In this document: positions 19,735-33,901 of the stretch, piece after piece | How the letters are laid out: every line of letters starts with the position of its first letter | How positions within the stretch are numbered: position 1 is the stretch's first letter | Source: Pseudovibrio axinellae | GTDB taxonomy: Bacteria; Pseudomonadota; Alphaproteobacteria; Rhizobiales; Stappiaceae | DNA length: 64,000 nt | Assembly (NCBI RefSeq): GCF_900110875.1 | Contig: NZ_FOFM01000006.1 | Location: 248,001 to 312,000, forward strand | Direction: 5' to 3' | Notes under the pieces: generated by a model | The model's input: the letters and a program-made list of their open reading frames with translations, nothing else | Databases searched by the model: none | Told to the model about the DNA's origin: nothing | Translations under genes and position numbers: made by a program

Positions 19735-20391
19735 TTAGATCCCAAAGAATGGTTGCAGCAGTTTTGGGAGCAAGCCTTTGAAAGCGAGTGGGGCATCCGT
19801 GACGGCCAGGCAGATGCAATCTTCTTCGGTATCGGCAACTGGTTGATGGTGCACAAGGTCATCTGCCTCTTGAACATCACCAACCTTGTAGCGTCCGGTT
19901 TCGTCACTAAACGAGCCCTTCAATACAAGGGTCATTTCTGATCCATGGTGAGAATGCTCAGGCGTCATGTATCCAGGAGATAACTTCAGCAGACGGGCCT
20001 TTTCTCCCTCGCTGGACTCCACCGGCAGCACAAATTGACGAATACCTGGACCAACCACCTTCCATTTAATGCCGCTGTATCCCTGCCCTAATACACCCCA
20101 AAGATCGCTTGGAACACCCTGTCTGGGTTTTGGTCGACTGATGCAGCTAAGAGAGCGCGAAGGCTTTTCACTCTCAACGCGCAACAAGAGCCTCTCAAAC
20201 AATTCATCAGAAGTATTCAGCTGCTCGCTTGTTTGAAGCAACGCACCTGCAAGCGCCTCGGCTTCTGCCAAACGCCCTTGGCAAGCTTTGCAAAGCTCTA
20301 GATGGCAGGACACGAGCAACGCATGACCTGCTGGCAAGGAGCCTGTCACATAGGCCCATAGAGTTTCATCACTAAGGTGGTGGTTGATCAT
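19735..20391 (-). CDS. chrR: ChrR-family anti-sigma factor
   Basis: A 218-residue zinc anti-sigma factor. The N-terminal ASD domain carries the ZAS-type ligands H5, H30, C34 and C37 (HLELCKAC), which bind zinc and hold RpoE. The C-terminal cupin-like domain has EHSHHGSEMTLVLKGSFSDE, whose His/Glu cluster would bind a second metal and is needed in Rhodobacter for release of RpoE in singlet oxygen. The start codon overlaps the rpoE stop by 4 nt, showing tight coupling with its sigma factor. Confidence 0.94.
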   Translation of the reverse strand: MINHHLSDETLWAYVTGSLPAGHALLVSCHLELCKACQGRLAEAEALAGALLQTSEQLNTSDELFERLLLRVESEKPSRSLSCISRPKPRQGVPSDLWGVLGQGYSGIKWKVVGPGIRQFVLPVESSEGEKARLLKLSPGYMTPEHSHHGSEMTLVLKGSFSDETGRYKVGDVQEADDLVHHQPVADTEEDCICLAVTDAPLAFKGLLPKLLQPFFGI

Positions 20392-20990
20392 GGTTCCACA
20401 CCCTTCAGAAGTTTACGCAACCGCACCAATGCAAGTCTCATTCGTGATTTAACTGTCCCCAGTGGTAGTTGTAGATACTGAGCAATCTTCGAATGACTGG
20501 CGTCCTCATAAAAAGCCAGTTTTATGATTTTCGATTGCTCTGCTGGCAACAGTGGCAATGCTTTTTGCACGCGCTCGCTCAGTTGAGCTTGATGGTGACT
20601 TTCGAACTGCGTCTCATCAACAACAAGTTCTTTTGAAAAGAACCGGTCATCTTTGTAAAGATACCGACGTTCTTTACGAAAATGATCGATGCGCAGATTC
20701 CGTGCGATTGTGTAAATCCACGTTGAAGCTGATGCCTTGCGCTCATCGTACAGCTCAGCTTTTCTCCAGATAATAACAAAGGTTTCCTGAATGAGCTCAT
20801 CAGCAAGCTCCAGACTGGCGCCCCCTTTCAGGAAGTAGTTTTTCAAACGGGGAGCGAAAAAAATAAAGAGTTGGCGGAAGACTTCTTTCGACCGCGTTTT
20901 ACCGAATGATTGCAACAGCACACTTAACTCTTGAGAACTGAGGTAATTCCTACTGCCACCATCATTGCCTTGAAGCTGCATTATTACCAT
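20388..20990 (-). CDS. rpoE: ECF RNA polymerase sigma factor RpoE (singlet-oxygen response)
   Basis: A 200-residue ECF sigma factor. Region 2 reads LADELIQETFVIIWRKAELYDERKASASTWIYTIARNLRIDHFRK, and region 4 reads LPAEQSKIIKLAFYEDASHSKIAQYLQLPLGTVKSRMRLALVRLR, a clear -35-binding helix-turn-helix. Pairing with a ChrR anti-sigma factor and linkage to photolyase and a CFA-like gene identify the ECF group that senses singlet oxygen. I chose ATG at 20988-20990; a GTG five codons upstream and ATG three codons downstream are alternatives. An RpoE-type promoter directly upstream implies autoregulation. Confidence 0.93.
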   Translation of the reverse strand: MVIMQLQGNDGGSRNYLSSQELSVLLQSFGKTRSKEVFRQLFIFFAPRLKNYFLKGGASLELADELIQETFVIIWRKAELYDERKASASTWIYTIARNLRIDHFRKERRYLYKDDRFFSKELVVDETQFESHHQAQLSERVQKALPLLPAEQSKIIKLAFYEDASHSKIAQYLQLPLGTVKSRMRLALVRLRKLLKGVEP

Positions 20991-21023
20991 CGCTCTGCAA
21001 AACACACGGATGTCTCTCAGTCC

Positions 21024-21053
21024 TTTTTACCAAACAGTTTGTCATTTGGATCA
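21024..21053 (-). promoter_or_regulatory. RpoE-type promoter of rpoE-chrR(-phrB)
   Basis: On the minus strand TGATCC is followed after exactly 18 nt by TAAAAA. The same -35 and spacing occur in the divergent promoter at 21071-21100, only 17 nt away, so one intergenic region would fire both units. TGATCC is the RpoE -35 element as I recall it from Rhodobacter sphaeroides. Confidence 0.75.
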
Positions 21054-21070
21054 CTTTTTCCTGCCTAAGG

Positions 21071-21100
21071 TGATCCATTTCTATTCGCCGCTCCTAAAAT
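21071..21100 (+). promoter_or_regulatory. RpoE-type promoter of the FAD oxidoreductase/DUF1365/methyltransferase operon
   Basis: TGATCC, an 18-nt spacer and TAAAAT, placing the transcription start about 20 nt before the ATG at 21127. It mirrors the rpoE promoter on the other strand. Confidence 0.75.
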
Positions 21101-21126
21101 GAGAAACTTCGGATAGGATTAGAGCA

Positions 21127-22467
21127 ATGAAAATCGCAGTGATAGGGAGTGGAATTTCCGGGCTTGCTGCAGCATGGCTGCTTTCTAAGGAGCATCTGGT
21201 CGATATTTATGAGAAAGATGACCGTCTCGGAGGGCATGCAAACACCCAGCAAATTCATATGGATGGAACCAAGGCATCCGTCGATACAGGCTTCATTGTC
21301 TTCAACAAACGTACATACCCAAATCTCACTGCACTCTTCGACTTGCTTGAAGTAGAAACCGTCCCAACGCAAATGTCTTTCTCGGTCTCATTACAGAACG
21401 GAGAAAAAGAATACTCAGGTTCCGGCTTAAAAGGCTTATTTGCCCAAAAATCCAATCTGTTCCGACCTAAATTTCTGCAAATGATCTCGCAGACAATGCA
21501 TTTTTATAAACACGCTTCGAGACATGCAAAAAAGTCAGAATTTCGCGAAACCACCCTTGGCGATTACCTTGTGCAGAAAAACTACTCAGCAACTTTCATT
21601 GATGAGCACCTTCTCCCAATGGGCGCTGCAATCTGGTCAATGCCTCCAAAACAACTGCTGAACTTTCCGTTCCGCACTTTCATCAGCTTTTGCAATAATC
21701 ATGGCCTCCTGCAGCTAAAAGATAGACCGCAATGGCGCACAGTTGCTGGCGGCTCATGTAACTATGTGAGAAAAATTGCCGAAAGAATCTCTGGCAAAAT
21801 TTTCTTAAATACAGCGGTCAAAGATGTTCAGCGCTCCCTTCGTTCCGTCAAAGTTTCAACGAGAACTGGCCAGGAGGCTTCATACGACCATGTGATTTTT
21901 GCATGTCACTCTGATCAGGCACTCGCAATTTTAAACTGCCAAAACAGTGCGTCCGAGGCGGAAACAAAAATACTGGGGTCCATCCGTTATCAGCAAAACA
22001 TCGCCGTCCTTCACCGTGATTTCTCGCTTATGCCGAAACGCAAGGCGGCTTGGTCGGCTTGGAATTTTACAGGCAACCATAATAACAATAACGCGCTCTC
22101 AGTAACCTACTGGATGAACGCTCTTCAGCAGCTCAACATCACCAGAAACGTTTTCGTCACGCTGAACCCAAATCAACAACCAGCCGAGGGTACAATACTC
22201 CGCAGTTTCCAATATGCGCATCCGGTTTTCGATCGCGCTGCGTTGAAAGCTCAAAAGCATGTCTGGCAAATCCAGGGCGAGAACCGCACCTGGTTCTGTG
22301 GCGCGTACCTCGGCTATGGCTTTCACGAGGATGGCTTGCAGGCCGGGTTGGCAGTCGCGGAAGCTCTCGGTGTCGCTCAGCGTGACTGGGTTTGCCAAAA
22401 TCAGAATGGTCGCATCGCCTTACCTGTTGGCTGGCCACTCAGAAGTTATCAGGTGGCTGCGCAATGA
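21127..22467 (+). CDS. FAD-dependent oxidoreductase, amine-oxidase type (candidate fatty-acid desaturase of UfaD type)
   Basis: A 446-residue flavoprotein with an N-terminal Rossmann motif (VIGSGISGLAAAWLLS), the ribose-binding EKDDRLGGHANT, a middle substrate domain (EHLLPMGAAIWSMPP, WRTVAGGSCNYV) and the C-terminal FAD motif (TWFCGAYLGYGFHEDGLQAGLAVAEAL). This subfamily is found with DUF1365 and CFA-like genes next to RpoE-ChrR; as I recall, the Rhodobacter counterparts take part in methylated furan fatty acid synthesis. It would act on membrane phospholipid acyl chains. First gene of a three-gene operon joined by ATGA overlaps and preceded by an RpoE-type promoter. The reaction is inferred from context. 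Confidence 0.9.
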   Translation: MKIAVIGSGISGLAAAWLLSKEHLVDIYEKDDRLGGHANTQQIHMDGTKASVDTGFIVFNKRTYPNLTALFDLLEVETVPTQMSFSVSLQNGEKEYSGSGLKGLFAQKSNLFRPKFLQMISQTMHFYKHASRHAKKSEFRETTLGDYLVQKNYSATFIDEHLLPMGAAIWSMPPKQLLNFPFRTFISFCNNHGLLQLKDRPQWRTVAGGSCNYVRKIAERISGKIFLNTAVKDVQRSLRSVKVSTRTGQEASYDHVIFACHSDQALAILNCQNSASEAETKILGSIRYQQNIAVLHRDFSLMPKRKAAWSAWNFTGNHNNNNALSVTYWMNALQQLNITRNVFVTLNPNQQPAEGTILRSFQYAHPVFDRAALKAQKHVWQIQGENRTWFCGAYLGYGFHEDGLQAGLAVAEALGVAQRDWVCQNQNGRIALPVGWPLRSYQVAAQ

Positions 22468-23321
22468 TTTTGAAAAAACACCGGCAAGAAGAAGACACAC
22501 CGCTTACTATCTACGAGGGCGCGGTGACACACATGCGTCACGGCCGCCTCAAACATAAGCTAAACTACAAAACTGTGTCCTTCACGATCAATATAGATCG
22601 CTTGCCGGAAGTGGATGGCCTCTCTCCGTTCCTATCTGTTAGTCGCTTCAACTTATTCAGTTTTTACCCCGCAGACCATATACAAGGTGGCTATCTCTCT
22701 CTTCGCAGCTTTATAGAAAACACCCTGAAGCAGGCTAGGATAGATACAGTCCCAGAGCGCATCGTTTTACTTGCATTCCCTAGGTTTTTGGGAAAGGTCT
22801 TTAACCCAATCAGTGTGTTTTATTGTTATTCGAAAGGCTGTCTAAAGGCCATCGTTTACCAAGTACGCAACACATTTGGCGACATGCACCACTACGCGGT
22901 TGAAATCTTATCTTCCGAAAATCAAAGCATGACGCATGCCTATCGCCATTCATGCCCCAAGAAACTCCATGTTTCCCCTTTCCTTGAGGTTACAGGTCAC
23001 TACGATTTCGTGGCGCGCCCACCCTCAAATTGTGTTTCTTTGCTCATTCGCCTTACTCAAGACAACCGGCCACAGCTCACCGCACGTTTTCAAGGCACAC
23101 GAAAACAGCCAACCACGTCACGCCTCCTGTTAATCGCCCTGCGGTATTTCCAAAGCTCTGCCAAAGTCCTCGGCCTAATACACTTTGAAGCTCTCAAGCT
23201 TTGGCTCAAAGGCGCAAAGGTCTACAAGCGCCCGCCTCCGCCAGCGTCAATTGTGACAAGCATGAACGCGACAGCTTCTGTGATAAAAGACCCTATCAAA
23301 ACCGCAGGCAAACGCACATGA
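22464..23321 (+). CDS. DUF1365 family protein (candidate UfaO-type)
   Basis: A 285-residue DUF1365 protein, recognised from IYEGAVTHMRHGRLKHKLNYKTVSF near the start and PRFLGKVFNPISVFYCYS...VYQVRNTFGDMHHYAVE in the middle. The biochemistry of the family is poorly known; it nearly always travels with the FAD oxidoreductase and CFA-like methyltransferase seen on either side here. From memory, the Rhodobacter homologue in the RpoE regulon is needed for the oxygen-inserting step of furan fatty acid formation. The ATG overlaps the upstream stop by 4 nt with AGGTGG just before it, and the stop overlaps the next start by 4 nt, so the three genes are translationally coupled. Confidence 0.9.
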   Translation: MILKKHRQEEDTPLTIYEGAVTHMRHGRLKHKLNYKTVSFTINIDRLPEVDGLSPFLSVSRFNLFSFYPADHIQGGYLSLRSFIENTLKQARIDTVPERIVLLAFPRFLGKVFNPISVFYCYSKGCLKAIVYQVRNTFGDMHHYAVEILSSENQSMTHAYRHSCPKKLHVSPFLEVTGHYDFVARPPSNCVSLLIRLTQDNRPQLTARFQGTRKQPTTSRLLLIALRYFQSSAKVLGLIHFEALKLWLKGAKVYKRPPPPASIVTSMNATASVIKDPIKTAGKRT

Positions 23322-24562
23322 GACACAGAGAACGCGCGTCCCTTCATGCTCCGGCCAGCTCGCAAAAAGCAAAGCTGAATTTAAGCTCCAAACTCTGGAA
23401 AGCCTTGCTGGACAAAGTACTCACGAACCTAACTTTGGGTCATTTGTGCATCATTCTGCCCAATGGGCAAGTACTAGCCTATGGCAACCGCACAACCCTC
23501 AGGCCAGCTGTAACCGTAAAAATCCTGCGCGCCCGTTTATTGTGGCGCCTTGTCTCTGGCAACTCTTTGACATTGGCGGAAGCGTACCTTGAAAAGGACT
23601 GGCAGTGTAATAATCTGCGCGCCCTCTTTGACTTGCTGCTTGCCAACAAGCAAATCCTCCACTCAATCAAACATCGTGGCTTCCTCTCAAAAGCTCTGGC
23701 ACGCCTACGCCACTTGGCAAACGCAAATACGCTTGCCGGCAGTAAGCGAAACATCGCGTTTCACTACGATTTAGGGAACGAGTTTTATGGCCACTGGCTA
23801 GATGAAACCATGACGTACTCCTCCGCCTACAAACTTCATAAGGATGAAACGCTTCAGGAGGCTCAACGCAGAAAATACCAGCGCGTTTTGCAACTCACCA
23901 ACACCGTGTCCAACAGTAACATCCTTGAAATCGGCTGCGGCTGGGGCGGTTTTGCAGAACATGCATGCCATTTGGGCAGACACGTTCACGGCATCACATT
24001 GTCACAAGAGCAGCTCAGATATGCCCAAAACCGTCTTCATTCTCAAGAGACAACTGGAGCCGCCTCTTTTGAAATGCGCGACTATCGTGAAACTTTCGGC
24101 CAATACGATGCTATCGTCTCGATTGAGATGATAGAAGCTGTCGGAGAGGAAAACTGGCAAAGCTATTTTCAGCAGCTGAAATCACTCCTCAAACCAGGCG
24201 GAATAGCTGTGATACAGGCAATTTTAATCTCTGATGGAAAATTTCAAGATTATCGACAGAACGTAGATTTCATCCAGCGCTATATCTTTCCTGGTGGTCT
24301 CCTTCCATCCGCGCATGAAATAGAAAAGCAGACAAGACGACAAAATCTGGAGCTAACCACAAAGGAGCTTTTTGGGACGGATTACGAGCAGACGCTCATT
24401 CGTTGGAGGACAGCTTTTTTCAAGAACTGGCCAGCGATCGCAAAACTTGGCTATGATCAACGCTTTAAGCGCATGTGGCATTATTACCTTGCATATTGTG
24501 AAGCAGGTTTTGCAGAAGGCACCATCAATGTCGGGCTCTTCCAAATAAAGAAGCCACTCTAA
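23318..24562 (+). CDS. SAM-dependent fatty acyl methyltransferase, cyclopropane synthase family (candidate UfaM)
   Basis: A 414-residue member of the CFA synthase family. Visible elements are FHYDLGNEFYGHWLDETMTYSSAY (149-171), the SAM motif ILEIGCGWGGFAEHA (202-216), the VSIEMIEAVGEENW helix and FIQRYIFPGGLLPS. Two residues that bind bicarbonate in E. coli CFA synthase appear changed: the Cys of YSCAYW is Ser (YSSAY) and the His of LLHTIG aligns with Gln (VIQAIL), while the Glu and Tyr are kept. That favours a methyl-adding rather than ring-closing enzyme. Third gene of the RpoE-controlled operon. The conserved N-terminus and the 4-nt overlap fix the ATG. Confidence 0.92.
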   Translation: MRHRERASLHAPASSQKAKLNLSSKLWKALLDKVLTNLTLGHLCIILPNGQVLAYGNRTTLRPAVTVKILRARLLWRLVSGNSLTLAEAYLEKDWQCNNLRALFDLLLANKQILHSIKHRGFLSKALARLRHLANANTLAGSKRNIAFHYDLGNEFYGHWLDETMTYSSAYKLHKDETLQEAQRRKYQRVLQLTNTVSNSNILEIGCGWGGFAEHACHLGRHVHGITLSQEQLRYAQNRLHSQETTGAASFEMRDYRETFGQYDAIVSIEMIEAVGEENWQSYFQQLKSLLKPGGIAVIQAILISDGKFQDYRQNVDFIQRYIFPGGLLPSAHEIEKQTRRQNLELTTKELFGTDYEQTLIRWRTAFFKNWPAIAKLGYDQRFKRMWHYYLAYCEAGFAEGTINVGLFQIKKPL

Positions 24563-24599
24563 TCGTCATATATCCACCTTCCAATTGCATCAATGCGGT

Positions 24600-25028
24600 T
24601 TAAATTGACGCACGTGAAGCGATCCACTTAATCATCAATCCTACTATCGGCAGTTTCCGGTAGAAGTGGCGGGAGGCATCCCAATAATCATAATGCGCAC
24701 AGACTTTTGCATCCTTGTCAAAATGCAATTCTGTCAGGCCCCGCACCCCCCATTCACCTAGCAACTTCTGGGTACATGTAAAGTCCCATCGCATAAAGCA
24801 CAGGTCTCTGGACCAGGCCAAATCAAGAATTTTGAATGTCGGCTGCTGCACATCCTCATACATTTTATGAAAGACCTTTTCAAAGCTGTCTCTCCCAACC
24901 ACATCGTTAAACGGGTCAATGAAATGAACATCATCACTGATCAGTGCATGAACCTCGTTTATTCGCTCAGGCGTAACCTTCTCAAAAAAGCATGCATACC
25001 GTCGTGCTGTCGTGTCTCTATCGGTCAC
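24600..25028 (-). CDS. NTF2/SnoaL-like protein
   Basis: A 142-residue single-domain protein with the NTF2-like fold: YACFFEKVTPERINEVHALISDDVHFIDPFNDVVGRDSFEKVF is the classic cone-shaped binding pocket start, followed by RDLCFMRWDFTC and ELHFDKDAKVCAHYDYWDAS. Members bind or transform small hydrophobic ligands. The Rhodobacter RpoE regulon contains a comparable gene beside an SDR gene. The ATG overlaps the SDR stop by 4 nt, so it is the second gene of an SDR-NTF2 pair converging on the methyltransferase operon. Confidence 0.88.
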   Translation of the reverse strand: MTDRDTTARRYACFFEKVTPERINEVHALISDDVHFIDPFNDVVGRDSFEKVFHKMYEDVQQPTFKILDLAWSRDLCFMRWDFTCTQKLLGEWGVRGLTELHFDKDAKVCAHYDYWDASRHFYRKLPIVGLMIKWIASRASI

Positions 25029-25777
25029 CGTTTACTCATCCTTTTCGTAACCCAAAAATAGAGAGCATATGGCAACAACCGCAGACCCTTTAAAATGGCA
25101 GCTAGGCGGAACGGGAAAGCAACCTCGAATTTGCTTCGCTCAAGGCCTCTGTAAATCACTTGAGCCGCCGCCTCAGGAGTGAGAATAAAAGGCATCTCGA
25201 AGGTGTTTTTATCTGTCATTGGCGTTTTCACAAAACCTGGATTTACGAGTGTCAATTTCAGACCTGCACTATCAAAATTTGGCTTCAAAGATTCACAAAG
25301 ATTGATCAGGGCAGCTTTGGTCGGTCCGTAACACCCTGCATTGGGCAAACCACAGTATCCACTTAAGGACGCGAGCACTGCGATATGACCACAACCTTTT
25401 GCCCCCAATGCCGGAAACAAACCTGAGATAACACGCACAGCTCCAAAGTAATTGGTGTCCATTGCCGAAACGCTATTTTCCTCGCTTAAAACATCCACTC
25501 CTCCTGGGTAGTAGATTCCAGAACAGTAAATGGTCAGGTCCGGTAGATCATTATTCTTATTGAACTGCTTGATGGCTGCCAAAACTTGATCCTGACACGT
25601 CACATCAAGTGGAACCACCTTCATCAGCTCAAAGCATGCGGCCATGTCCTGTAGCTTCTGCCGACTGCGAGCGCTGGTAACGACGCGCCACCCAGAACGA
25701 GCATAGAGCCGCGAAAGGCTGGAGCCTATCCCTGAACTCGCCCCAATGATCCAAACAAGCTTCCGACGTTCTGCCAT
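25025..25777 (-). CDS. Short-chain dehydrogenase/reductase (RpoE-linked)
   Basis: A 250-residue classical SDR: cofactor motif GASSGIG (11-17), CSGIYY in place of NNAG, the catalytic Ser in ASLSGY and the YxxxK pair in CYGPTKA, then VNPGFVKTPMT. The C-terminus is hydrophobic (LPYALYFWV) and may touch the membrane. ATG at 25775-25777 was chosen because AGAGG lies 5 nt upstream and an RpoE-like promoter ends about 20 nt before it; the longer reading frame has no support. It shares long identical stretches with the SDR at 33137-33901. Confidence 0.9.
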   Translation of the reverse strand: MAERRKLVWIIGASSGIGSSLSRLYARSGWRVVTSARSRQKLQDMAACFELMKVVPLDVTCQDQVLAAIKQFNKNNDLPDLTIYCSGIYYPGGVDVLSEENSVSAMDTNYFGAVRVISGLFPALGAKGCGHIAVLASLSGYCGLPNAGCYGPTKAALINLCESLKPNFDSAGLKLTLVNPGFVKTPMTDKNTFEMPFILTPEAAAQVIYRGLERSKFEVAFPFRLAAILKGLRLLPYALYFWVTKRMSKR

Positions 25778-25794
25778 AACATCCTCTCTGCTTG

Positions 25795-25824
25795 CTCTTA
25801 CGCCATTAAGAGAGAAGCAGATCA
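25795..25824 (-). promoter_or_regulatory. RpoE-like promoter of the SDR-NTF2 pair
   Basis: On the minus strand TGATCT, an 18-nt spacer and TAAGAG. The -35 differs from the other two sites at the last base; the spacer length is identical. The implied leader is only about 11 nt, just enough for the AGAGG ribosome binding site. Confidence 0.6.
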
Positions 25825-25837
25825 TGTCCATATGCAA

Positions 25838-26860
25838 AAAACTCTCAAAATCCGCTCATTCCTATACTCTTGGCACTTAAAGTGGTCTTGAGTATTGTCG
25901 GTAGAGTATTCAGCACCCTCTATCCGAGTAGTTTTATAAGAACAAACCCTTACTTATCTGTCGCGATTCACCCACTCATTTTGCTCATTCATATGCCTGC
26001 CATTGTCTTTGCTCAATAAGCCCAAAAGTCCTCAGCGAATGCCCAATCACCTCAGCGATTTTCAAATTTTCTCACAATCGAACATTCAAATTGCCGGTTT
26101 CCATGACGCAAACGTCAGGGTCAAACGGGTTGTCCAGCGAAAAATTGTCACTGCAAGATTTGCTCAAGACTTAGGCAAAGAATACACTAAAATCCGTTTT
26201 CTCTTTGATTTACCAAGCTCAAAAAACTCTGGCATTTGTCTCAAAGCAAACAATAGATCACACAATAATTCCGTTTAACTTATTGTTATATATTGGTATT
26301 TTATAAAGACACGTCTCCCAATGATGTCATATAGCTTCACGTCTCTAACGCGAACACGTGTAACGAGGACACCCAAATCTGACCACATCACAAAGCGACG
26401 CAGTTTTGTAGGTAAATTCAGTCTTCCCCCACCACAAGCGTCCGACAAATGAAGAAATTTCCGCAAAATACGATTTAATTAAAGTAATGTTTTATTTCAT
26501 AGCAAAGTCAGCAAATATCTTGCGTGCATAGATCAAACACACACAACCTGAAGAATATAGGTTTACTTTTACGTTCACTCCTATGGCGCTCAATATACTG
26601 GACAACAACACAACTCCATCCAAGTAATATTCATTGACATCTTAAGAGCAAATAACACATCATCTAAATATAAAACTTTAATAATATATACATACCCAAC
26701 TACTTCTCAACACCTATTGATTTTTTACTCGACACGCATGAAAGTATTAATATATTATTTACCATGTTCAACTGCACAAATTACATCCCATAATAAAAAT
26801 AGACTGATCTGGGGTTGTGCCAAAACTTTTATAAACACGCGAAAATCTATAGGGGCTGAG
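25838..26860. other. About 1 kb AT-rich non-coding region upstream of the DSF synthase gene
   Basis: Base composition is clearly richer in A/T than in the surrounding genes, most strongly at 26270-26800. Open frames in it show no known family, no ribosome binding site and no coding-like residue pattern. It probably contains the rpfF control region. Confidence 0.5.
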
Positions 26861-27841
26861 ATGTCTGATCTAATGGGGCATAGATCCAACTTTCCTTCCT
26901 TTGATGGAATTACAAAGCCATCCCTACAGTCAGGGCACAATCCAAACCTTGATGTGTCCACTGTTTCAATTGCACAACAGTTTTCATCGGTTCAGTTAGA
27001 CTGTGTTGATCTTGAATTCGACGAAACAACCAAAGCACTCTGGCTTTACATGAAAAGTGAGGGTCGTCCCTGCTTTACGCCGGAGTTACTTGATGAGCTT
27101 GCGCAATCACAGGCTGTGATGAAGCGCCTCTTCGAAACCTACCAACCAACAGATCCCTGCCCTATCAACTTCAAGGTTGTCGCTTCCCGGATTCCTGACG
27201 TTTACAACCTTGGCGGCGATCTTAACCTCTTTATTGAGCTGATCCGTGAGAACAACCGCGCAAAACTACTGCAATACGCTGTGGCCTGCGTCGACGTAGT
27301 TTACCGGAACGCGGTGTCCTCTGACCTGCCAATTATAACGATTGGTATGATTCAGGGTGATGCTCTGGGTGGTGGCTTCGAAACAGCACTTTCCTGCGAC
27401 GTAATTATCGCTGAGCGCCAGGCAAAGTTCGGCTTACCTGAAGTGCTCTTCAACCTTTTCCCAGGCATGGGTGCTTACAGCTTTTTGTCGCGCATGGTAG
27501 ATGGTCGCGTCGCTGAGAAAATGCTGATGAGTGGGCGTCTCTACTCTGCAGAAGAGCTGCATGAGCTCGGCATCGTGCACGAAGTCGTAGAGCAAGGCGA
27601 AGCGCCTTACGCTGTACAACGATACATTGCCAAGAATGCCAAGAAGCACACCTCTCATTCTGCAATTTACCGAGCGGGCCGCACTGTTCAACCTGTCACA
27701 TATAAAGAACTGATCGACGTGGTCGAGATCTGGGTTGATGCTGCGCTTTCCCTCACAGATCAGGATCTGAAGAAGATGGAGCGCCTGACAAAAGCTCAGG
27801 ATCGCCTATCCGCTCCATCCGCGCAAAAGCAGGCGCTCTAA
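26861..27841 (+). CDS. rpfF: RpfF-type diffusible signal factor (DSF) synthase, crotonase fold
   Basis: A 326-residue crotonase-family enzyme. RpfF makes cis-2-unsaturated fatty acid signals from 3-hydroxyacyl-ACP through dehydratase and thioesterase activity. The segment GDALGGGFETALSCDVIIAE followed by FGLPEVLFNLFPGMGAYSFL is the RpfF signature, with the two catalytic glutamates at E174 and E194, 20 residues apart as in Xanthomonas RpfF (E141/E161). YNLGGDLNLFIELIRENNR also fits. ATG at 26861 has AGGGG 5 nt upstream; a longer reading frame from 26717 lacks a good start. Length exceeds the Xanthomonas enzyme by about 35 residues, mostly at the N-terminus. It converges on the RpfC-type kinase gene with a 14-nt gap. 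Confidence 0.9.
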   Translation: MSDLMGHRSNFPSFDGITKPSLQSGHNPNLDVSTVSIAQQFSSVQLDCVDLEFDETTKALWLYMKSEGRPCFTPELLDELAQSQAVMKRLFETYQPTDPCPINFKVVASRIPDVYNLGGDLNLFIELIRENNRAKLLQYAVACVDVVYRNAVSSDLPIITIGMIQGDALGGGFETALSCDVIIAERQAKFGLPEVLFNLFPGMGAYSFLSRMVDGRVAEKMLMSGRLYSAEELHELGIVHEVVEQGEAPYAVQRYIAKNAKKHTSHSAIYRAGRTVQPVTYKELIDVVEIWVDAALSLTDQDLKKMERLTKAQDRLSAPSAQKQAL

Positions 27842-27856
27842 AAAGCGACTGCCTGC
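27829..27856. terminator. Possible shared hairpin between convergent rpfF and rpfC
   Basis: GCAGGC and GCCTGC pair around an internal GCT/AGC stem and a CTAAAA loop; one strand continues into TAAAAA. It spans the rpfF stop and reaches the rpfC stop. Weak as a terminator because the T-tracts are short. Confidence 0.35.
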
Positions 27857-30459
27857 TAAAAACGATCCAGTGTGCTCAAGCGACTGACAGGGTTAGACCT
27901 TTCTTGCTTGAGCTCCTGCAGGTAGCCTCTGAGGTTTTTGTGGTCGCGCTTGAGCTTGCCTGCCAGTTTACGAAGCATGTCTTCACCCAGAAATTGTATC
28001 TGATGTGAAGGCATGTTTTCCATTTGACCACTCAAATGCACGATGTCCGTGGCACCCAGATTCACGGAGGCAGACCGCAGCGCGTGGGCGCTGGCCCTAA
28101 CTTTTTCACAGTCACGCGCTTCAACAGCCGCTTTAAGATCATGCTGCAACTGTGAGACCTCTTTCAGGTAATCCTCAACCACATTTATTACGAATTCCAG
28201 ACCACCTAAGGATCTTAACTGGGACAGGCTCGCATAGTCGATCCCAGAGGAGACCTCGGATGTAAAGCAAGGATGTTCGGCAATTGATGTGATCTGGCTG
28301 TTCGCAATCTGCTTGCGAGTGATATTCTCATAAACACCACATTCAGTGATCACGTCATCAATCAATGTCAGCAGCCGTTGTGGTTCAATCGGCTTGGTTG
28401 CACACGCATCCGCCCCTGCCTCCTGCGACTTGCTTGCCGAGGAACGACTTGCATCAGCGGTCAACGCAATGATTGGTAACCGGTCCTGTCCAAGCTCTGT
28501 AATCCGTCGCAACTTGATGGTTTCAATACCATTCAGGACAGGCATGTTGATGTCCATGATCGCCAGATCATAAGAGTTCACTTCAAGCTCATCCAAAGCA
28601 AGTTCGCCATTGCCCACCAGCGTACAAGTATGCCCGCCTTTCTGGAGGATTTTCTCAATTACACGCTGATTAGATTTGTTATCTTCAGCGACAAGAATAT
28701 TCAGGCCAATATAACGGCTGAAATAGGCTTGAAGCTCTTCCTTGATCTCCATGCCGCAATGGGCATTTTCAGCACCGGCAGCCCTCAAAGCCCATGCTAC
28801 AGACTGTGTGGAACCTGGCACCTTAATCGAAGAGACAAGGTTAGGCTGCGTTACGCCTGTACTCGCGCTTTCATCGACAGCACCGGAGACAGAGACCAGA
28901 TCGACATTGTGATGCTGTCCCGCAGATTTAAGTGCGTAGTATAAGCTGTCAGAGGCTGTAGCGAGAACATCGTCACCAACAAACAAGACAACCTTGCCAT
29001 CATCGCCGGACGTTTGCTGCCTCAGAGCACTAAACGCCCGCCCAACGGTCTCAAAGCATTCAGCCTCAATACCGCAAGCTTTCAGTGAGGCAACGCACCC
29101 CTCAAGCAAATCCTTACGCTTAGAAACGACGGCAACAGCTCCACCAACCACTTCAAGCTGTGTGGTCTCGTCGCTCACGGCCCGCCCAACGCTCAGCTCA
29201 ATAAAGAAGGTACTGCCCTTCCCAGGCTTACTGCGGACAGAAACCTCACCGCCCATCGCACGCACGACCTCTTGTGCAATGGAAAGACCAAGGCCGGTTC
29301 CGCCAAATCGGTCAACAATGCTCTCATCTGCCTGAGTAAAACGTTCAAAAATGCGAGACTGGGCGTCCTCTGGAATACCAATACCGGTATCTTCCACTTC
29401 CAAGATCAAGCGCACTTCACCACCGGCAACTCCCTTACAAAGCGCGCGAATGGCAACAGATCCCTGCTCTGTAAATTTAACCGCATTGCCTGCAATATTA
29501 AGCAGGACTTCTCGGATATGGCGTGCATCTCCAACCAGCAGCGGCGGCAACTCACTATCCACGAAACGCGAGATGGTCAGGCTTTGACCATGCGCTTGCC
29601 CTTGCACAATCTGAGCAACTTCTTTCAAGATAAAATTGATATCAAAAGTCGTCTGATTGACAATCATCCGTCCACTCTCGATCTGGCTAAAATCAAGAAT
29701 ACCGTTGATCATGGAAAGCAGGGAGTTCCCAGAATATTGGATGGTCTTCGCCATCTCCCGCTGCTCACAATCCAGCTTTGTACCCTGCAGCAACTCGCCC
29801 ATACCATTGATCGCATTCAACGGTGTACGCAACTCGTGACTAACAGCAGTCAAAAACTGTGTCTTGGCTCTATTCGCAGTTTCTGCAGCTTGCTGTGCAG
29901 CTGTCATCGACCTGATGAGTTTACTTGCATAAAGCGGCACAACAACAAGGCAGCCAAGCAGACCTAAACCAAGGATAAATTCCACCTGCCAGTAAGGCGT
30001 TGTAAGCACAACAGCAAACCCACTCACCGAGGCAATGGTGGTAAGCGCAAGGTAATCCAAGCCAAACCGGAAGCCATTCCCGAATATCACCCACAGATAG
30101 ATCGGGAACAGGATTGAAAGGTACTCACCGCCAACATACATGCCGGCAGAGACCGACCCCACATCCAGAAAAATTGCAAAAACGCGGCGTAGCGAATTCA
30201 CTGTTTGAGAATAAAGCAGATGGGCAAGAAGGAAGAACGATCCAACCGCAAACGTGGACATAATGAGCGTGGTTTGAAAGTTCTCGTAGGAACCAAAGGT
30301 AATGTTTGAAGCAAGATAGGGCGTGATGAGCAAGGTGAAAGCAAAGCGGTTTAAAGACATTTCGCCTTCACCACCACCAAGTTGGATGACTTGCTTATAA
30401 AGAGCCTTTATCTCGGCACATGGGAGCACTGGCAGCTTTGAATTTCGGTTATCATTCAT
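27856..30459 (-). CDS. rpfC: RpfC-type hybrid sensor histidine kinase (DSF receptor candidate)
   Basis: An 867-residue membrane kinase. Residues of about 35-185 form about five to six membrane helices; the stretch VFAIFLDVGSVSAG...LWVIFGNGFRFGLDYL and LTTPYWQVEFILGLGLLGCLVVVPLYASKLIRSM closely follow the sensor region of Xanthomonas RpfC. Then come HisKA with VSHELRTPLN (H208), HATPase (NAVKFT, DTGIGIP, GGTGLGLS), a degenerate receiver-like stretch (about 435-565), a full receiver (about 585-705, D636, K689) and an Hpt domain with H792 in SAHALRSASVNLGA. This HK-REC-Hpt phosphorelay matches RpfC. In Xanthomonas RpfC senses DSF and also restrains RpfF. It overlaps the upstream regulator gene by 4 nt. 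Confidence 0.9.
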   Translation of the reverse strand: MNDNRNSKLPVLPCAEIKALYKQVIQLGGGEGEMSLNRFAFTLLITPYLASNITFGSYENFQTTLIMSTFAVGSFFLLAHLLYSQTVNSLRRVFAIFLDVGSVSAGMYVGGEYLSILFPIYLWVIFGNGFRFGLDYLALTTIASVSGFAVVLTTPYWQVEFILGLGLLGCLVVVPLYASKLIRSMTAAQQAAETANRAKTQFLTAVSHELRTPLNAINGMGELLQGTKLDCEQREMAKTIQYSGNSLLSMINGILDFSQIESGRMIVNQTTFDINFILKEVAQIVQGQAHGQSLTISRFVDSELPPLLVGDARHIREVLLNIAGNAVKFTEQGSVAIRALCKGVAGGEVRLILEVEDTGIGIPEDAQSRIFERFTQADESIVDRFGGTGLGLSIAQEVVRAMGGEVSVRSKPGKGSTFFIELSVGRAVSDETTQLEVVGGAVAVVSKRKDLLEGCVASLKACGIEAECFETVGRAFSALRQQTSGDDGKVVLFVGDDVLATASDSLYYALKSAGQHHNVDLVSVSGAVDESASTGVTQPNLVSSIKVPGSTQSVAWALRAAGAENAHCGMEIKEELQAYFSRYIGLNILVAEDNKSNQRVIEKILQKGGHTCTLVGNGELALDELEVNSYDLAIMDINMPVLNGIETIKLRRITELGQDRLPIIALTADASRSSASKSQEAGADACATKPIEPQRLLTLIDDVITECGVYENITRKQIANSQITSIAEHPCFTSEVSSGIDYASLSQLRSLGGLEFVINVVEDYLKEVSQLQHDLKAAVEARDCEKVRASAHALRSASVNLGATDIVHLSGQMENMPSHQIQFLGEDMLRKLAGKLKRDHKNLRGYLQELKQERSNPVSRLSTLDRF

Positions 30460-32642
30460 AGCTCAATTTCCGCCCCAACCAGTACCTTTTGCGGGTATTG
30501 CCCCTGCGCCTTCAAAGACTGCTGTTCCAACAGTAATGAAAACTCTTGTGCAGGCACGGGTTTGCCAAACAGGTACCCTTGCGCCAACTCGCATCCAGCA
30601 TCTTTGAGGTAATCAACTTGCTCACGCGTCTCTACGCCCTCCGCAATAATTGACAAGTCAAGGCTGGCACCCAGGCCAACGATTGCTTTGATGATCACCG
30701 TGCTGTTCGGATCGGTCATCATATCTCGAGTAAAGCACCTATCGATCTTCAGGCAATCAACGGAGTACCTGCTCAGATAAGCCAGAGAGGAGTAACCGGT
30801 GCCGAAATCATCAATCGAGACAGCAATTCCCATCTCGCGAATGACACGTAAATCTCGTACGGTCGCCTCGGACCCGTGCAAGACGATGTTTTCAGTGATC
30901 TCAATCTCCAGCTTTTCTGGAGGCAAGCTGCAAGAAACCAGCGCATCTTTCAAAAGCTGCGGTACATCTTGTTTTCTAAACTGCGTCGGGGAAATATTGA
31001 TTGCAATACGAGGCGTATCCAGCCCCATATCCATCCACTTCTTCGCCTGTTTACATGCTGCAAAGATCACCCACTCCCCAATCGGAAGGATCAGGCCAAC
31101 CTCTTCCGCTGTGCCCAAGAACACGTTTGGCGCCACCACACCATAATCCGGTCGATTCCATCGCAACAGGGCTTCAGCCCCAACAATTTCGTTGTTCTCC
31201 AGGTTGATCTGAGGCTGATAAAACAGCTCAAGCTGATCCTGCTCAATTGCATTGCGCAGCTCGTTTTCCAGCGCGATCGTTTCTTTTACGTGGTGATCCA
31301 TCTTTGAAGAAAACAGATGGAACGTATTTCCGCCATCTGCTTTGGATTGGTACATGGCCATATCAGCACAACGAAGCAGCTCTTCACTGTTCAGACCATC
31401 CTCCGGATACTTAGTAATACCCACACTGGCGCTGGTCTGAAGTTCCCGCCCGCTGATCAAGAAAGTCTCCTCAACCACACTAACAAGATGCTGAGCAAAG
31501 CGAAGGGCCTCTTCAGAGCTTTTCAAGTCTGTCTGTAGAATGGCAAATTCATCGCCGCCCAGTCGCGCCACGAGGTCAGAGCCATCAACACAACGCAACA
31601 ACCGCTCTGCAAGCACCTCCAAAAGCCGATCGCCGATGCGATGCCCCAAAGCATCATTGATGGACTTAAACCGATCTAAGTCCAGGAAATGAAGCGCAAA
31701 ACCACGCCCACTGTTGCGGCACTGGAAGATTTCTTCATCTATGCGGTCGCCAAGCATGGTCCTGTTTGGCAGGCCCGTCAGCGCATCATGATGCGCGATG
31801 TGCAGCAGATGAGCTTCAGCGCGTTTGCGATCTGAGATGTCCGTCGCTGTTGTTACCACATGCGTGGTGTTTCCAGCAGCATCCAGCAGGGGGCTCTTGG
31901 TGACGATGAAATGGAAGACATCGCCTGCATGGTTTCGCTGTTCAATTTCATATGGGGGCAACGCCCTCCCGGTAATGAACACCTTTCGATCCAGTCGGCG
32001 GTTACTCTCTTGAGTAAACTTGTCGAACTTCCCATAGGCATCCTGACCGATGAGTTCTGCAGTCGTCGAATTCAGAAAATTTGCCCATGCCGCATTGGTG
32101 AACGCGCATAATCCATCCAGGGTACAGGTCATGATCATGGCTGGGACGCTGTCAATAACTTGCGCCAGCCGCTCACGAGAATCGCGCAGTGCTTCCTTAC
32201 GTTGCAGCTCAACGTTGACCAGCTCCTGTTCAAGGAACCGCGCATGTCGCTTAACCGCATTCTGCTCTTCGCGCAGTGCAAGCAGATTTCTCGCCCTGCT
32301 CACAAACTCATTGTGATCGACCGGGCTTTGGAGAAAGTCCGTCGCGCCAGCTTCCAACGCCCTAATACGAAATGACCTATCAGTGAAAACAGTGATGACA
32401 ACAACAGGCACGTCACTGCAATGGTCGAGCGCGCGCACCTTCTGCGTCAACTCAGCCCCGTCCATCTCTGGCATACTGTAGTCTGTGATAATCAGGTCGG
32501 GAACAGTGCTCTCCATAAATGCGAGAGCATCAAACGGCGATGCAAAACACTGCACCTTGACAGAGGCACCTACAGCAAGTGCAAGCTTTTCAAAAATACT
32601 TCTATTAATTGCCCTGTCGTCGACAATAACGATTGTTGTCAT
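30456..32642 (-). CDS. Response regulator REC-PAS-GGDEF-EAL (c-di-GMP turnover), RpfC partner
   Basis: A 728-residue four-domain protein: receiver (1-125, D8/D9 and phospho-acceptor D54), coiled linker, PAS (about 158-275), GGDEF (about 285-445, intact GGDEF at 362-366) and EAL (about 460-710, EALLRW at 490-495, DDFGTGYSSL present). It could make and break c-di-GMP. The receiver has Ser106 (LQSPVD) where a Lys-Pro is usual, and the product-inhibition site before GGDEF reads DGSD rather than RxxD. In Xanthomonas the RpfC partner is the HD-GYP protein RpfG; here this protein takes that place, joined to rpfC by an ATGA overlap. PAS-GGDEF-EAL is also the layout of the Burkholderia DSF receptor RpfR. 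ATG at 32640-32642 gives MTTIVIVDD. Confidence 0.92.
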   Translation of the reverse strand: MTTIVIVDDRAINRSIFEKLALAVGASVKVQCFASPFDALAFMESTVPDLIITDYSMPEMDGAELTQKVRALDHCSDVPVVVITVFTDRSFRIRALEAGATDFLQSPVDHNEFVSRARNLLALREEQNAVKRHARFLEQELVNVELQRKEALRDSRERLAQVIDSVPAMIMTCTLDGLCAFTNAAWANFLNSTTAELIGQDAYGKFDKFTQESNRRLDRKVFITGRALPPYEIEQRNHAGDVFHFIVTKSPLLDAAGNTTHVVTTATDISDRKRAEAHLLHIAHHDALTGLPNRTMLGDRIDEEIFQCRNSGRGFALHFLDLDRFKSINDALGHRIGDRLLEVLAERLLRCVDGSDLVARLGGDEFAILQTDLKSSEEALRFAQHLVSVVEETFLISGRELQTSASVGITKYPEDGLNSEELLRCADMAMYQSKADGGNTFHLFSSKMDHHVKETIALENELRNAIEQDQLELFYQPQINLENNEIVGAEALLRWNRPDYGVVAPNVFLGTAEEVGLILPIGEWVIFAACKQAKKWMDMGLDTPRIAINISPTQFRKQDVPQLLKDALVSCSLPPEKLEIEITENIVLHGSEATVRDLRVIREMGIAVSIDDFGTGYSSLAYLSRYSVDCLKIDRCFTRDMMTDPNSTVIIKAIVGLGASLDLSIIAEGVETREQVDYLKDAGCELAQGYLFGKPVPAQEFSLLLEQQSLKAQGQYPQKVLVGAEIEL

Positions 32643-33136
32643 GCAGCTACCACCACGAGTGTCACTGCTGAAGACATAAAAAACCCACAACAGTTAACCA
32701 AATTCACCCCATGGTTTTTGTCGAATAAGGAGTCAACGTTAAGAAATGCCAAATAGTTATCATTAAATGCTTTGTATCAAACGTATGGTTATATATACTT
32801 AAACGTATCCACGAGGCGACAGAAGCCGCTGCTCAAACTCTTTAATTTTATTCATCAACTGAATAAAGCTAGTGTTGTCGGTAGTTTGCACAGAATTGTG
32901 TCACAACAGTTAACTGGCTTAAGAACTTACTGAAACAATTAAAGCGCAATATCTCCAGCCTCTTAAATCACACCAAATAGTTGTTACTATACCCAGTAAT
33001 ACACTCACCCAAAGAGTGTTCGTTTTTGCAACTAGTCAAAGAAAATAGCGCAAATACTGAATTAGTTTTCAAAACTGTTGAACAACAACACCCGGGCGAA
33101 GCGCGCTACTGCCTCAGCCCGCGTTAAAAGCTCGCG
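32643..33136. other. Intergenic region upstream of the REC-PAS-GGDEF-EAL gene
   Basis: No gene recognised. A 13-nt direct repeat (CACAACAGTTAAC) occurs at 32686-32698 and 32902-32914; the first copy is 44 nt upstream of the start codon. The TATATA run near 32790 could be part of a promoter. Confidence 0.4.
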
Positions 33137-33901
33137 CTATGAAGGTCTTTGTTTTCCTGTCGTAAGGCCGACCAGTTTAAAGTAGGCCCAATAAGGAACA
33201 AATCTCATCAGCTTCAGCGCAACAGCCAACGGCAATGGGAATGTGGTTTCAAAGCCTTTACGAGCCAGCCCTTTCTTGATGCGTTTTGCAGCGCTCTCCG
33301 CGCTGATAATAAACGGCATCGGCACCTTACTGTCCTTGGTCATATCCGTTTTCACAAAGCCTGGATTTATCACCGACAGCGTAAGATTAGCCTTGTCAAA
33401 GCTCGGTTTCAGTGACTCGCAAAGGTTAATCAGTGCTGCTTTGGTAGGCCCATAACTAGCCGCAAAGGGCAACCCACCATAGCCGCTAAGCGAAGAGATG
33501 ATAGCCACTTGCCCCGAGCCACGCTTCTTTAGCAATGGAAACAGGTTATGAATGGTCCGAACCGCACCAAAGTAGTTCGTATCCATCGCATTGACACATA
33601 TCTCATCCGTCAATGTAGAAAAGCCTCCTATTGGAAACACACCGGCGCAATAGAGTGTGAGGTCTGGAAGGCAGGCATCAGCATCAAGTTTTTGGACAGC
33701 CAGCGCCACTTCATCCTTGTCGGTCACATCAAGACGCAGCGCTCTTATAGCATCAGAAGTCTCCTCAAGTGCTGCAAGTCGCTCAGCTCGTCGGCCGCTT
33801 GCAATCACCTGCCAGCCGTCTGCGGCATAGATCTTACAAAGCTCCTCTCCAATTCCTGAAGTTGCTCCAATAATCCAGATAATCTTATCCTGAGATGTCA
33901 T
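33137..33901 (-). CDS. Short-chain dehydrogenase/reductase, paralogue of the RpoE-linked SDR
   Basis: A 254-residue classical SDR with GATSGIG, catalytic Ser in SSLSGYGG and YxxxK as SYGPTKAALINLCESLKP, then VINPGFVKTDMT. It shares blocks such as YGPTKAALINLCESLKP and AMDTNYFGAVR with the SDR at 25025-25777, so the two are close paralogues flanking the DSF locus. GGGGGAG lies 5 nt before the ATG. Unlike its paralogue, I see no TGATCC-type promoter upstream. The substrate is unknown; a lipid or carbonyl compound is possible from the family alone. Confidence 0.9.
   Translation of the reverse strand: MTSQDKIIWIIGATSGIGEELCKIYAADGWQVIASGRRAERLAALEETSDAIRALRLDVTDKDEVALAVQKLDADACLPDLTLYCAGVFPIGGFSTLTDEICVNAMDTNYFGAVRTIHNLFPLLKKRGSGQVAIISSLSGYGGLPFAASYGPTKAALINLCESLKPSFDKANLTLSVINPGFVKTDMTKDSKVPMPFIISAESAAKRIKKGLARKGFETTFPLPLAVALKLMRFVPYWAYFKLVGLTTGKQRPS

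Follow-up and report, generated by a model that had tools for sequence, protein, structure and literature searches.

A predicted RpfF/RpfC/RpfG-type signalling locus with an exchanged output module in Pseudovibrio

Gene content and surroundings of the locus

The window, the whole stretch of 64,000 nucleotides that was analysed, comes from a Pseudovibrio genome of 5.1 Mb (99.9% complete) and holds a block of three genes resembling the diffusible signal factor (DSF) locus of Xanthomonas. All three open reading frames described in the initial annotation were found, as was the convergence of rpfF and rpfC that it had likened to Xanthomonas. The features are as follows:

26861..27841, + strand: rpfF-like gene, 326 aa, predicted DSF-type synthase of the crotonase superfamily (catalytic E174/E194, oxyanion-hole G119/G171)
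27842..27855, no strand: spacer of 14 bases between the convergent rpfF and rpfC stop codons
27856..30459, - strand: rpfC-like gene, 867 aa hybrid sensor kinase (membrane sensor at residues ~1-185, HisKA H208, HATPase, REC 588-700, Hpt H792)
29845..30456, - strand: RpfC sensor, aligned with 71 homologues in alignment A2
30346..30381, - strand: sensor-motif codons L27-GGGEGEMSLN-R38, counterpart of Xanthomonas RpfC R15-A-D-S-E-H-A-Q22 and the next residues
30456..32642 (from ATG), - strand: rpfG-counterpart gene, 728 aa REC-PAS-GGDEF-EAL response regulator

The open frame of the rpfF-like gene could be extended upstream to a TTG at 26717, and the response regulator gene has an alternative open start, a TTG at 32690. 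Because its TGA stop codon overlaps the ATG of rpfC, the response regulator gene and rpfC read as one putative operon in the order rpfG-rpfC. Both this order and the convergence with rpfF are the same in Xanthomonas, whose rpfGHC operon (PMC4504480) was used for the comparison, except that the Pseudovibrio block is without rpfH. Inquilinus-type loci (L022, L031, L039) and L156:4862-5785 hold short separate copies of this kinase's sensor domain between rpfC and the response regulator gene, the position that rpfH takes in Xanthomonas. The nearest named relatives of the synthase are those of P. denitrificans and Pseudovibrio sp. Ad37 (87%).

Two paralogous SDR genes in the same orientation (51% identical) lie one on each side of the block, at 25025-25837 and 33137-33901; they were rejected as members of the system, most other Pseudovibrio loci being without them beside rpfF. 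The region at 19735-25837, which encodes an ECF sigma factor with a ChrR-like cupin partner, an amine oxidase, a DUF1365 protein, a cyclopropane-synthase-type methyltransferase, a SnoaL-like protein and an SDR, looks like a cluster for photo-oxidative stress and fatty-acid modification.

The synthase and its association with an RpfC-type kinase

Judged by its sequence, the product of 26861-27841 is a true RpfF-family crotonase. Among solved structures, Xanthomonas RpfF is the one nearest to it in sequence (E 7e-58; 40% identity), and its identity to the Burkholderia synthase is 36%. The two glutamates that the initial annotation had recognised as catalytic, E174 and E194, align with Xanthomonas E141 and E161 at a spacing of exactly 20 residues, and the GGGFETALS and GLPEVLFNLFPGMGAYSF contexts are present as it had described them. 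The oxyanion-hole residues G119 and G171 correspond to Xanthomonas G86 and G138, and the further Xanthomonas residues kept are L136, G137, W258 and L276 (catalytic and oxyanion-hole residues as named in PMC9040811). An AlphaFold model of the protein (pLDDT 89.9) fitted 3M6M best, with an rmsd of 1.4 and 38% identity, DspI and ordinary or catabolic hydratases fitting it far more poorly.

The phylogeny that had been put forward as a check places the window protein inside the RpfF clade, apart from the catabolic hydratases. The tree comprised 87 proteins, namely 79 of RpfF type (including Xanthomonas 3M6M and Burkholderia 5FUS), seven hydratases of the same genome and DspI, and it separated the RpfF-type group from the genome's enoyl-CoA hydratases and DspI with an SH-aLRT of 100, as obtained by a quick method and with long outgroup branches; Pseudomonas aeruginosa DspI thus stood with the ordinary hydratases. 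The protein also passes the cut-off of NCBIfam PRK08788 (375.6 versus 177 bits), a wider model that takes both proven synthases, from Xanthomonas and Burkholderia. It lies below the cut-off of NF053515, the model for Xanthomonas-type RpfF (244 versus 550 bits), but since the proven Burkholderia enzyme falls short as well, this cut-off marks a Xanthomonas/Stenotrophomonas subset and the shortfall was rejected as a disproof of RpfF identity. The name that the NCBI family model gives the window synthase is merely crotonase family protein.

The adjoining kinase has the hybrid HisKA-HATPase-REC-Hpt layout with phosphorelay residues. Its membrane region, compared with the sensor alone of a near-Xanthomonas RpfC (from a genome with an RpfF 98% identical to that of Xanthomonas campestris), scores 74 bits, and the RpfC sensor domain occurs as a single copy in the Pseudovibrio genome, so the likeness to RpfC in the membrane sensor, previously noted, holds. 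Functional linkage of kinase and synthase is supported by genome comparisons, for which co-occurrence is the best test. Across 385 evenly drawn Alphaproteobacteria, RpfF above the family cut-off was present in 24 genomes, the RpfC sensor domain in 24 and both in 22, compared with 1.5 expected (Fisher p 2e-31, a value that overstates the number of independent events, as the sampled genomes are akin, although the matches nevertheless fall in ~20 genera); the excess over chance includes cases where the two lie on different contigs. Among the 80 nearest RpfF homologues, an RpfC-type kinase lies within 9 kb in 65 (convergent in 58), and a response regulator is present too in 62. In the even class sample RpfC was found near rpfF in 16 of the 24, convergent in all 16, several of the others being truncated by contig ends. 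Sensor homology, convergent order and this strong co-occurrence all back the proposed RpfF/RpfC pairing. We file the kinase as RpfC-type, with a putative role as DSF receptor, rather than as a proven one, because four of the five residues known to be needed for DSF sensing are replaced.

Sensor input domain and output protein

In Xanthomonas RpfC, residues R15, D17, S18, E19 and Q22 beside the membrane are required for DSF sensing, and position 18 accepts only Ser or Thr (PMC5391125). The corresponding motif in the window, L27-G-G-G-E31-G-E-M34, retains just E19 (as E31) of these five, and the same is true of all eight Pseudovibrio sequences in the alignment, in each of which R15 is replaced by Leu or Ala, D17 and S18 by Gly, and H20 by Gly, Leu, Thr or Ala, while a new pattern, GGE-x-EM, is fixed. 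The pattern RPD[S/T]EH prevails in RpfC-type sensors outside Pseudovibrio: among 81 such homologues R15 is kept in 59, D17 in 71, Ser or Thr at 18 in 56, E19 in 80 and H20 in 65. At position 22 the homologues have Gln, Met, Ile or Leu, and many sensors encoded beside rpfF have one of the last three. With R, D, S and H gone, the Pseudovibrio sensor is altered in exactly the part with which Xanthomonas reads DSF. This replacement of four residues is the first of two new points, and it may point to a different ligand or a different mode of reading. PA1396 of Pseudomonas aeruginosa, which has an RpfC-like input domain by description, senses DSF via helices IV and V, much of its N-terminus being dispensable (PMC6536496).

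The second new point, a six-helix topology of the RpfC input domain, we infer rather than present as a result. An AlphaFold model of the sensor built with 72 homologues (pLDDT 92.9) has six long hydrophobic helices. Of the 72 sequences, 71 have a higher Lys and Arg content in loops 2 and 4 than in loops 1, 3 and 5, and the remaining one is a tie; under the positive-inside rule this alternation fits six spans that start from a cytoplasmic N-terminus. The seven Xanthomonas-type sequences follow the trend, but less clearly. The published topology, predicted for RpfC and supported in PA1396 by PhoA/LacZ fusions, comprises five helices and puts the N-terminus in the periplasm. The PA1396 fusion data agree with six helices for the last loops but disagree in the first half, where two fusions ahead of the first helix are, in our reading, hard to interpret. 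Contrary to the five-helix models, the modelled structure and the charge pattern suggest six membrane helices, and an N-terminus in the cytoplasm, throughout the RpfC input family. Helix counting on Kyte-Doolittle profiles was dropped as too noisy, and a structure search with the sensor model returned no significant match (best E 0.44). One structure job was run without three plasmid rows.

The receiver of the third gene is the genome's top match to the Xanthomonas RpfG receiver, with 86 bits compared with 58 bits for the next best of 32 receivers. Its output is PAS-GGDEF-EAL with intact GGDEF and EAL signature residues, and HD-GYP, the RpfG output, is absent from this protein and from the Pseudovibrio genome. 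The third gene product is best regarded as a counterpart of RpfG whose output has been exchanged, and the name RpfG itself is not applied to it. The suggestion that the locus has its own c-di-GMP effector thus stands insofar as a c-di-GMP protein adjoins, though as a REC-PAS-GGDEF-EAL protein and not an HD-GYP RpfG. On the receiver tree the output type switches just 3-4 times, with HD-GYP in Gammaproteobacteria and GGDEF-EAL in the window's relatives. The alphaproteobacterial rpfF-rpfC-response regulator blocks (L009-L088, L116-L139) have the same gene content and arrangement as the window; in the even sample their output is mostly a histidine kinase, unlike that of the window, while GGDEF-EAL prevails among its nearest relatives.

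The Pseudovibrio block therefore shares with Xanthomonas the synthase family, the membrane sensor, the HisKA-HATPase-REC-Hpt kinase and the RpfG-type receiver, and differs in its PAS-GGDEF-EAL instead of HD-GYP output, the altered sensor motif, the lack of rpfH, an RpfF of only 40% identity and a HATPase-REC spacing of ~165 aa compared with ~45 in Xanthomonas RpfC. Like the RpfF-RpfR systems of Burkholderia and Cronobacter, it has a synthase of this family (36% identity) and encodes a PAS-GGDEF-EAL protein close to rpfF, but RpfR carries an FI domain and PAS ligand residues where Pseudovibrio has a receiver and a membrane kinase. Loci of Methylobacterium, Sphingomonas and a relative (L090:8844-11174, L091:8892-11006, L143:5553-7925) have rpfF convergent with the gene of a GGDEF-EAL protein having a similar-looking hydrophobic N-terminus that lacks a Pfam match, and neither RpfC nor a recognisable FI domain was seen beside rpfF; this protein may represent an additional class of receptor for signals of the DSF type.

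Proposed signalling, alternatives and significance

We consider it likely that the locus is a form of the RpfF/RpfC/RpfG signalling locus proper to Alphaproteobacteria, including the proposed signal relay. Confidence in its identity as a conserved DSF-type locus is high. The analysis shows the gene content and order, the position in the RpfF clade, intact catalytic signatures in all three proteins, the sensor homology and co-occurrence and the RpfG-type receiver; signal production and sensing are predicted, and that the window sensor reads a cis-2 fatty acid is held with moderate confidence. For this locus we infer the product, the ligand, the phosphotransfer, the direction of the c-di-GMP change and the control of RpfF. 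RpfF would dehydrate its substrate and release a cis-2-unsaturated fatty acid, predicted to be straight-chain because substrate supply sets the product. The signal would be perceived by the RpfC-type membrane sensor and lead to autophosphorylation of the kinase, from which the phosphate would be relayed via the REC and Hpt domains of RpfC to the adjoining RpfG counterpart's receiver. Phosphorylation of this receiver would switch the GGDEF/EAL output and with it cellular c-di-GMP and surface behaviour, and by analogy with Xanthomonas, unstimulated RpfC may restrain RpfF via its REC domain.

Against this explanation stand the four of 16 Pseudovibrio species that are without an RpfF gene and the replaced DSF-sensing residues of Pseudovibrio RpfC, the latter mitigated by PA1396. 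A refinement of it rather than its opposite would be that RpfF makes a fatty-acid signal and that the remodelled sensor is specific for another signal of this family, distinct in chain length, unsaturation or head group. This is a serious possibility, albeit not the one we favour: the loss of R15, D17, S18 and H20 with E19 kept and GGE-x-EM fixed throughout Pseudovibrio speaks for it, as does the finding that all Xanthomonas S18 replacements tested other than Thr lowered DSF sensing (PMC5391125), but N-terminal mutants are known for one receptor only, the variable position 22 in sensors adjacent to rpfF implies that the essential residues are not all universal, and PA1396 can do without much of its N-terminus in DSF sensing (PMC6536496). 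A joint reading, in which a six-helix RpfC input with a cytoplasmic N-terminus reads the signal with its motif at the inner membrane face and the Pseudovibrio motif is remodelled for a different, undescribed fatty-acid signal from its own RpfF, appears doubtful.

That the third protein and not RpfC is the receptor, binding the fatty acid in its PAS domain in the manner of RpfR, is very unlikely. The PAS-GGDEF-EAL order is common to both and the overall match to Burkholderia RpfR reaches 331 bits, but similarity begins at the PAS domain, a receiver occupies the N-terminus in place of the RpfF-binding FI domain, and the four tested BDSF ligand residues of the RpfR PAS domain, S168, N171, R186 and N201 (PMC6361424), are all lost, the window protein having N, L, a gap and K; RpfR identity was rejected for want of the FI domain and these PAS residues. 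We find it harder still to believe that the crotonase is a metabolic enzyme and a chance neighbour of a two-component system. Crotonases are common, with 15 matches in the Pseudovibrio genome at E<=0.001, yet tree and structure group this one with proven synthases and its kind co-occurs class-wide with the RpfC sensor far above chance, so that a simple catabolic crotonase was rejected.

The preferred reading, an alphaproteobacterial RpfF/RpfC/RpfG-type locus, supports the initial annotation, within limits, and is not a one-off: with RpfF in 24 of 385 sampled Alphaproteobacteria (6%, about one in sixteen) and the block conserved, the locus is not rare and is a variant of the known system. RpfC-RpfG pairs have been listed in Alphaproteobacteria in KEGG-based work (PMC8895600), and a review recognises two DSF core pathways, RpfC/RpfG and RpfR (PMC4504480); our search, confined to the open-access literature, turned up no report of an RpfF tested in this class. 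The E. coli plasmids also hold such a gene (RpfF-like, 32% identical), at ~22286-23035 of both NZ_CP060058 and NZ_CP060062; E. coli has been described as being without a DSF synthase (PMC6361424).

A genome study of two Pseudovibrio strains concluded from the absence of luxI that quorum-sensing molecules are responded to and not synthesised (PMC3806328). A candidate signal of its own can now be proposed for this genus of marine-animal symbionts, RpfF being encoded in 12 of 16 Pseudovibrio species genomes. Across its occurrences the block keeps synthase, sensor and receiver while the output module is swapped among HD-GYP, GGDEF-EAL and histidine kinase, which separates the fixed from the interchangeable parts of the system, and the natural variation of the sensor motif offers a ready series for working out how sensor residues match particular fatty acids and at which membrane face the signal is read.
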